From: Halobacteriales archaeon QS_6_71_20
GTDB taxonomy: Archaea; Halobacteriota; Halobacteria; Halobacteriales; Haloferacaceae
DNA length: 64,000 nt
Assembly (NCBI GenBank): GCA_003020945.1
Contig: PXRU01000003.1
Coordinates: 1-64,000, forward strand
Direction: 5' to 3'
In this document: in pieces, positions 7,904 to 56,962 of the stretch
Layout of the letters: every line of letters begins with the position of its first letter
Numbering within the stretch: position 1 is the first letter of the stretch
The notes under the pieces: model-generated
Seen by the model: only the letters and a program-made list of their open reading frames with translations
The model's database searches: none
What the model was told of the DNA's origin: nothing
Position numbers and translations under genes: made by a program

Positions 7904-8206
7904 GGGAGCGAAGCGACCGACTGAGCCGACGGATGAACGGCGGCGAGGTCCGAAGGGCCGAGCCGCCAACTGAAAGCGCAAGCCGGAGGAGAGCGAAGCG
8001 ACCGACCGAGCCGACGGGAGGACGGCGGCGAGGTCCGTGGGCCGAGCCGCCGACTGAAAGCGCGGGCCAGGGGAGCGAGCGAAGCGAGCCGCCAACCGAG
8101 AGTGCGGGCCGGAGGAGAGCAAAGCGACCGACTGAGCCGACGGATGAACGGCGGCGAGGTCCGTGGGCCGAGCCGCCGACTGAAAGCGCGGTTCAAGGAA
8201 GAGCGG
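7904..8206. repeat. Imperfect ~85 bp tandem repeat array, three full units plus one internally deleted unit
   Basis: Anchor aagcgaccga/aagcgagccg at 7911, 7996, 8082 (shortened unit) and 8122; conserved ggcggcgaggtccg..ggccgagccgcc.actgaaagcgc core. Confidence 0.85.
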
Positions 8207-45738: not shown

Positions 45739-45854
45739 GAAAGCCCCTGTCGGTCCGCGGTCGGTGCGGGCGGCGCGCTCCTCGGTCGGTCGCTTCGCTC
45801 CCTCCCTGTGGTGCTCCCCGCTCCGCGCCGTCCCGCGGACCGACGGCCCCTTTC
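45739..45854 (-). repeat. Extragenic palindromic element, copy B (22-nt imperfect terminal inverted repeat)
   Basis: Left arm gaaagcccctgtcggtccgcgg (45739-45760), right arm ccgcggaccgacggcccctttc (45833-45854), complementary except near the cccc/gggg box. Confidence 0.8.
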
Positions 45855-45977
45855 GTTCCCGCCCCGTAGTCGGGCGGGTCCAGCGTCGCGGCCCTCCGCC
45901 CAGCGTGTACGACTGCGAGTCGCCGAAGCCGGAGCGCCGACCGGCGGTTCTTTGTCTCGGGGCACCGGAGCAGCGGT

Positions 45978-56547: not shown

Positions 56548-56695
56548 GCGGACGCCCTCCCGCGGTCGGCGCGTGCCGGCGGACCGCCGTGTCCGCCGGA
56601 CGCGCGCGAGGGACGAGCGAGGAACGAACGCAGTGAGTGACGAGTGAGTCGGCTGGGGAGGGTGTGGCTGCGGTGTCGTCGCTGTGGGTGGGACT

Positions 56696-56803
56696 GAAAG
56701 GGGCTGCCGCGCTCGTGAGGCGAGACGACGCAAGCACGCGAGGGAGCGTCGGCGACCGAGGGCGCGCAGCGAGTCGCAGCCCACGAGCGCGGCAGGGGCT
56801 TTC
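56696..56803 (+). repeat. Extragenic palindromic element, copy A (22-nt imperfect terminal inverted repeat)
   Basis: Left arm gaaaggggctgccgcgctcgtg (56696-56717), right arm cacgagcgcggcaggggctttc (56782-56803); 14-bp perfect inner pairing. Confidence 0.85.
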
Positions 56804-56880: not shown

Positions 56881-56962
56881 CGCCAGGACAGGGATTTGAA
56901 CCCTGGATTCCATACGGAAACACGCTTTCCAGGCGTGCGCCTTACCACTCGGCCATCCTGGC
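56881..56962 (-). tRNA. tRNA-Ser (anticodon GGA)
   Basis: Reverse complement GCCAGGATGGCCGAGTGGTAAGGCGCACGCCTGGAAAGCGTG...GGTTCAAATCCCTGTCCTGGC-G: 7-bp acceptor stem, D arm, CTGGAAA anticodon loop, variable arm, T arm; no encoded CCA. Confidence 0.95.

Follow-up and report, generated by a model that had tools for sequence, protein, structure and literature searches.

Intergenic hairpins of about 100 bases across Halobacteriales: an apparently undescribed family in which arm covariation may stem mainly from whole-hairpin replacement

In Haloquadratum walsbyi, SMR-A is a transposase-free element of ~110 bp with prominent inverted ends and no target duplication, present in up to ~54 copies per genome and described as inserted in the near-terminal palindromes of PATE/IS605 elements (PMC3119063). 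The ends of PATEs and IS200-IS605 elements, also haloarchaeal, bear near-terminal palindromes that form single-strand hairpins, and in the "SwitchRepeats" of Haloquadratum, a given position holds repeats that differ in identity or orientation (PMC3119063). This set is the closest published lead to the hairpins reported here, from which its IS605 context sets it apart. REP/REPIN sequences, which are found with RAYT transposases, are dispersed intergenic palindromes with inverted doublets and variable stem sequence. Integron attC sites are recognized as a folded strand with conserved foot boxes, an unpaired spacer, and variable pairing arms. MITEs and the ERIC, BOX, and Correia repeats are short dispersed repeats without coding sequence, conserved both at their ends and in the sequence of their arms. 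Covariation within a stem is usually read as slow compensatory mutation under structural selection.

The window, that is, the whole stretch of 64,000 nucleotides that was analyzed, carries two hairpins of one family, element A (108 nt) and element B (116 nt; Table 1), which were the only copies retrieved by a relaxed pattern scan of its full length. The position, strand, and end boxes that the earlier note gave for element B, with boxes like those of element A, hold to the base. From both ends inward, the hairpin consists of a GAAAG/CTTTC pair, GGG facing GGG, paired arms of ~12 bp, and an imperfectly paired interior; three G-opposite-G positions between the GAAAG/CTTTC pairing and the variable arms leave the ends without a clean inverted repeat. 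Element B folds with z = -5.4 as DNA and -7.3 as RNA relative to shuffles, 0 of 200 of which folded as well. Its neighbors, named by inspection, are a RIO-kinase-like gene (minus strand) and a lipoate-ligase-like gene (plus strand, from 45978). A tRNA gene lies near element A (56881-56962, minus strand); at site A in two sister genomes (L278/L372 in G016 and L348 in G017), broken, duplicated tRNA-like ends CCAGGACAGGGATTTGAAC..CTCAAATCCCTG stand downstream where the window has this gene. Elsewhere, positions 7959-8201 of the window comprise a direct repeat of 117 nt (88% identical, 126 nt from start to start), the neighborhood of which has a 25-nt core in common with element B.

Table 1. Positions of the two hairpins and their parts within the window
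Feature	Positions	Strand	Basis
Element B hairpin, GAAAG-GGG-arm(12)-interior-arm(12)-GGG-CTTTC	45739..45854	-	Sequence; fold z; 12 exact matches within own genome
Element B 5' "short module" CGCGACGCTGGACCCGCCCGACTACGGGGCGGGAAC, ending in a conserved GGGNGGGAMT-type motif that adjoins GAAAGGGG	45855..45890	-	Sequence; upstream profile
Element B outer stem, left (GAAAG; partner CTTTC at 45739-45743)	45850..45854	-	Sequence; fold
Element B GGG/GGG internal loop	Left 45847..45849; right 45744-45746	-	632 GGG/GGG copies vs 9 paired variants, 24 genomes
Element A hairpin, ends as element B, arms CTGCCGCGCTCG/CGAGCGCGGCAG	56696..56803	+	Sequence; DNA fold z -4.2
GGGTGGGACT motif immediately 5' of element A	56686..56695	+	Sequence; positions -10 to -1 conserved
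Element A 5' "long module" (approximate boundaries): GCGCGTGCCGGCGG..CCGCCGGACGCGCGC as a small hairpin, followed by CGGCTGGGGAGGGTGTGGCTGCGGTG	56569..56685	+	Sequence; sister-genome copies

In its own 2.65 Mb genome, the end pattern yields 12 exact copies, compared with 0 for the reversed-pattern control. At the family level, 71 of 173 genomes, from 21 of 28 genera, contain it; order-wide, a tighter pattern that includes part of the upstream motif retrieved copies from 133 of 251 genomes, representing 47 of 78 genera, and the controls stayed at zero throughout. Hairpins are mostly ~90-135 nt long and number up to 58 exact copies per genome, exceeding 50 in some genomes. The genera represented include Halobaculum, Haloarcula, Halorussus, Natrinema, Natronococcus, and Halosimplex, and a hairpin from H. 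gomorrense matches one in a genome of the window's genus, which suggests that this genus is Halobaculum; one large genus (g21 of the family) is almost devoid of copies. A viral origin was rejected, as end-pattern matches in viral contigs have arms paired at chance (mean 3.1 of 12), and bare-pattern matches retrieved outside haloarchaea by the genome scan likewise have unpaired arms. Literature searches by sequence and by concept found no earlier description of the hairpin sequence, in agreement with the note's suggestion of an undescribed system. The picture is one of a large family of ~100-base intergenic hairpins, present in about half of the sampled Halobacteriales genomes and apparently undescribed.

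The cassette spans GAAAGGGG to GGGGCTTTC and sits behind a conserved GGGNGGGACT motif, which the upstream profile places immediately 5' of GAAAGGGG. There are also two longer 5' modules, a short one at element B and a long one at element A, the latter recurring upstream of hairpin copies in sister genomes. On the other side, CTTTC is followed by a short lineage-specific tail of 8-9 nt; at one locus (L373, G016), this tail has expanded to a tandem array of GCGGTCGTCGTGTTC units. With four G tracts at fixed spacing on one strand (GGG-N-GGG, GGG, and GGG), the G-rich strand could form a G-quadruplex in which the hairpin is one loop, helped by molar intracellular potassium, the quadruplex being the functional mark. 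Both upstream tracts are intact in 161 of 199 copies, in keeping with this idea; however, a regular minority, GGGTGGACT, has only two Gs in the second tract with the internal GGG/GGG still intact, and the upstream and internal tract sets do not decay together. We regard a quadruplex as improbable.

Variation also extends to the hairpin interior, which within the same ends was flipped in five copies and of a second class in five. The second class reads GGTCGTCTCAGCGACCCCTAT..ATATGTCGCTGAGCGACC with arms that are mostly CGCCCGCTCGC (L071, L101, L108, L156, and L161) and is frequent in G211, G241, and G266. If the hairpin were a structured non-coding RNA, or a 3'/5' UTR element whose stem covaries, the RNA fold score and the covariation along the stem would be accounted for. 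An RNA with a functional conserved interior is not expected to tolerate inverted interiors or interiors of an unrelated class, however, and Rfam gave no match above the gathering threshold, leaving little probability for an RNA element. Smaller nested repeats were observed as well: ~50 bp double-hairpin units, such as CAGAACGCGTAGCGTTCTG + CTCACGAGAGC..GCTCTCGTGAG, have been inserted in one sister species, either within the element or within its 5' module (L287, L249, L284, and L247 compared with their sister loci).

Arms clearly correlate genome-wide, as expected of the self-complementary dispersed element that the earlier note proposed. Across 40 copies taken without a pairing filter, mean arm pairing was 10.8 of 12 vs 6.0 (sd 0.31) with shuffled partners, and 0 of 10,000 shuffles reached the real value. 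Together with the reversed-pattern controls, the shuffles rule out generic GC-rich low complexity as the source of the family. When covariation was counted on end-anchored positions in a non-redundant set of 95 copies, each arm position from 10 to 20 was paired in 83-93 of them, with all four Watson-Crick pairs represented at nearly every arm position. Given that the GGG/GGG box is partly imposed by the search pattern, its retention was measured separately in 24 copy-bearing genomes, where 632 copies (sum of the table) have the box vs nine fully paired loci. Four of these nine are flanked left and right by outer tails and resemble fusions formed when a hairpin pair lost its center; the other five are real arm-to-arm conversions. 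Inter-arm gene conversion, one of two causes raised in the earlier note, thus occurs, but five real cases against 632 are too few for it to be what chiefly shapes the ends; at the GGG/GGG box, it is apparently not tolerated or not favored.

The other cause raised was compensatory change under selection on the hairpin. Sites were compared among eight genomes of the window's genus, probably Halobaculum, where 93 copies are spread over 42 sites, and at least two species share 26 of these. Flank identity is 93% or higher in 18 orthologous pairs; of their hairpins, eight are at least 96% identical, ten are at most 75% identical, and none falls between, a gap that stepwise compensatory drift would fill. 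The covariation is real, but it is not mainly the product of stepwise change; the difference between the arms of elements A and B appears to come mainly from replacement of whole hairpins rather than from compensation at one site.

Cassettes spread by copying from site to site and are also replaced in situ. Near-identical hairpins occupy unrelated loci in three cases in G241 (L364/L365, L366/L367, and L368/L369), where homology starts at or near GGGNGGGACT and stops at or shortly after CTTTC; exchanged hairpins at unrelated loci are sharply bounded by the junction of GGGNGGGACT with GAAAGGGG and by GGGGCTTTC. Two sites in G016, one of them the orthologue of window site A, have hairpins that are 98% identical, whereas the matched region that includes their diverged 5' modules is only 87% identical. 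Elements A and B represent two separate sites, both also occupied in G014 and G016: at site A, the window's arms are kept in G017, and G014 and G016 have another hairpin, also present at the unrelated G016 site; at site B, G014 and G016 contain a different hairpin. At one site, the interior is inverted between the same arms (G014 and G019; L246 vs L338, 93.5% identical as reverse complement). Near-identical copies in a toxin-antitoxin-rich region of G005 were traced to segmental duplication and are not general. Solo right ends (arm + GGGGGCTTTC + tail) form tandem repeats at intervals of ~55 bp immediately 3' of intact hairpins (L364-L369 in G241; L163) and look as if exchanges stack 3' ends.

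A recurrent unit is a head-to-head pair of cassettes. Close neighbors are head-to-head in 31 of 32 cases, with a spacing of 37-47 bp in many genera and wider elsewhere. Elements A and B, whose opposite orientation within 11 kb the earlier note pointed out, do not themselves form a unit: true pairs lie within ~40-290 bp. A pair has outer ends GAAAGCCCC..GGGGCTTTC, followed by the outer 8-9 nt tail, around a center CCCCTTTCAGTCCCACCCG..CGGGTGGGACTGAAAGGGG, and with this arrangement, the Gs that are mismatched inside one hairpin can pair across the two; single hairpins have only GAAAG/CTTTC in common at their two ends. Scars in which GAAAGC is joined to CCACCC (L271 vs L291) or GAAAG to TCCCGCCC (L104) suggest that a pair lost one of its hairpins, and singles partly arise in this way.

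The reading that we favor, tentatively and at somewhat under even confidence, is that element B is one copy of a Halobacteriales-wide set of exchangeable intergenic hairpin cassettes recognized as a folded single strand. The G-rich strand would be the one recognized, with the GGG/GGG internal loop and the GAAAG/CTTTC foot as its marks and the arms free to vary provided that they pair. Recognition could then lead to strand-specific copying or template exchange between cassettes, and arm covariation would be inherited from the swapped cassettes. A host role, for example near promoters, may keep sites occupied. As double-stranded DNA, the ends GAAAGGGG and GAAAGCCCC differ in motif whichever way they are read, which disfavors a transposase that binds TIRs and acts on a single hairpin; folding of the strand gives the symmetric GGG/GGG loop, making folded-strand recognition the better fit.

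The main rival is ordinary ectopic gene conversion combined with a host role. Here, no dedicated enzyme is required: cruciform hairpins break or stall forks, polyploid cells repair them by ectopic gene conversion with the conserved ends as homology, and selection keeps the hairpins as an insulator, terminator, nucleoid site, or promoter-proximal site. Breakpoints are variable, as such conversion would leave them, falling inside the hairpin (L254/L287, arms kept and interior replaced) or carrying flanks along (L243/L262 and L259/L276), and hairpins have been deleted at microhomology (L271/L291 and L260/L289). These breakpoints count against cassette recognition, as do the lack of any enzyme found and the absence of a clean insertion with target duplication among our comparisons, in which empty sites were not clean and pair flanks were judged by eye. 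A host role is further favored by the sites kept across Halobaculum and by gene context: with simple GC-position gene calls, the gene downstream of single copies is co-directional in 90 of 122 cases vs ~54% for background intergenic orientations (the copies are not fully independent), and the element end is mostly 83-163 bp before the start codon. Unswitched hairpins are also more conserved than their flanks (100% vs 88-93%; for L268/L339, 100% vs 92.7% and 88.0%), a sign that the hairpin itself is under selection, which mobility alone would not require. Given that mutually replacing hairpins are only ~65% identical, this conservation is paradoxical; either other copies serve to refresh the hairpin, or single mutations in the arms face strong negative selection. 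Homology-driven conversion alone, however, leaves unexplained why GGG/GGG is almost never homogenized or lost across the order and why one large genus nearly lacks the family. We consider this rival a serious possibility, albeit on the improbable side.

Copies are dispersed between ordinary genes, and among recurrent neighbors we found no transposase (TnpA/TnpB) and no integrase. An IS200/IS605-derived element of PATE or REPIN type, moved by a Y1 transposase, would explain the resemblance of the hairpin ends and in-place switching to PATE/SMR-A of Haloquadratum (PMC3119063). Nevertheless, no Y1 match was found in G000 (12 copies), G020 (10), or G060 (32), none is listed for G103-G105 (25-38), and TnpB numbers 0-2 in the hairpin-rich G060 and G103-G105. 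With Y1 absent and TnpB nearly absent in most copy-rich genomes checked, they are unlikely general agents, and this origin is very improbable. A ~1.6 kb repeated segment ending at a hairpin (L302:2398-4005, L303, L299-L301, L036, L070, and L086) carries a gene for an SSB-like OB-fold protein (~283-306 aa) directed away from the hairpin; such a gene, 450-620 nt behind the hairpin, was rejected as marking an autonomous version, as it occurs at only ~10 loci. Returning to folded-strand recognition, its strongest form would be a dedicated system, shared by haloarchaea across the order, in which a non-Y1 recombinase recognizes the strand by its G-G loop and both copies and swaps hairpin cassettes among fixed intergenic sites. 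We judge that form doubtful.

What is new is that arm covariation is probably not mainly stepwise compensation. It would stem largely from whole-hairpin replacement, observed directly in sister species, with structure inherited as a module. Often upstream of genes, the family supplies tens of natural replicates per genome, which can be used to ask what recognizes the G-G internal loop and whether haloarchaea have single-strand cassette exchange.

Compared with known systems by description rather than by sequence, SMR-A is similar in its size with prominent inverted ends, lack of a transposase, tens of copies, and switching; it differs in that the present hairpins are found between ordinary genes and TnpB is not one of their recurrent neighbors. 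PATEs share near-terminal palindromes, single-strand hairpins, and a haloarchaeal host, whereas the present family is not linked to Y1/TnpB content and has GAAAG..CTTTC ends with an outer inverted tail in pairs. Like REPINs, the hairpins are dispersed intergenic palindromes with inverted doublets and a freely varying stem, but they are single hairpins of ~100 nt with a G-G internal loop and whole-hairpin swaps, and Y1/RAYT is absent from most copy-rich genomes checked. MITEs, ERIC, BOX, and Correia repeats are likewise short, non-coding, and dispersed with conserved ends; their arms, however, are conserved sequence, and we know of no case among them in which whole hairpins are exchanged while a mismatch stays invariant. 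The attC site offers an analogy of working only, through its foot boxes, unpaired spacer, and varying paired arms, the present copies being dispersed rather than in cassette arrays and having no recurrent integrase neighbor.
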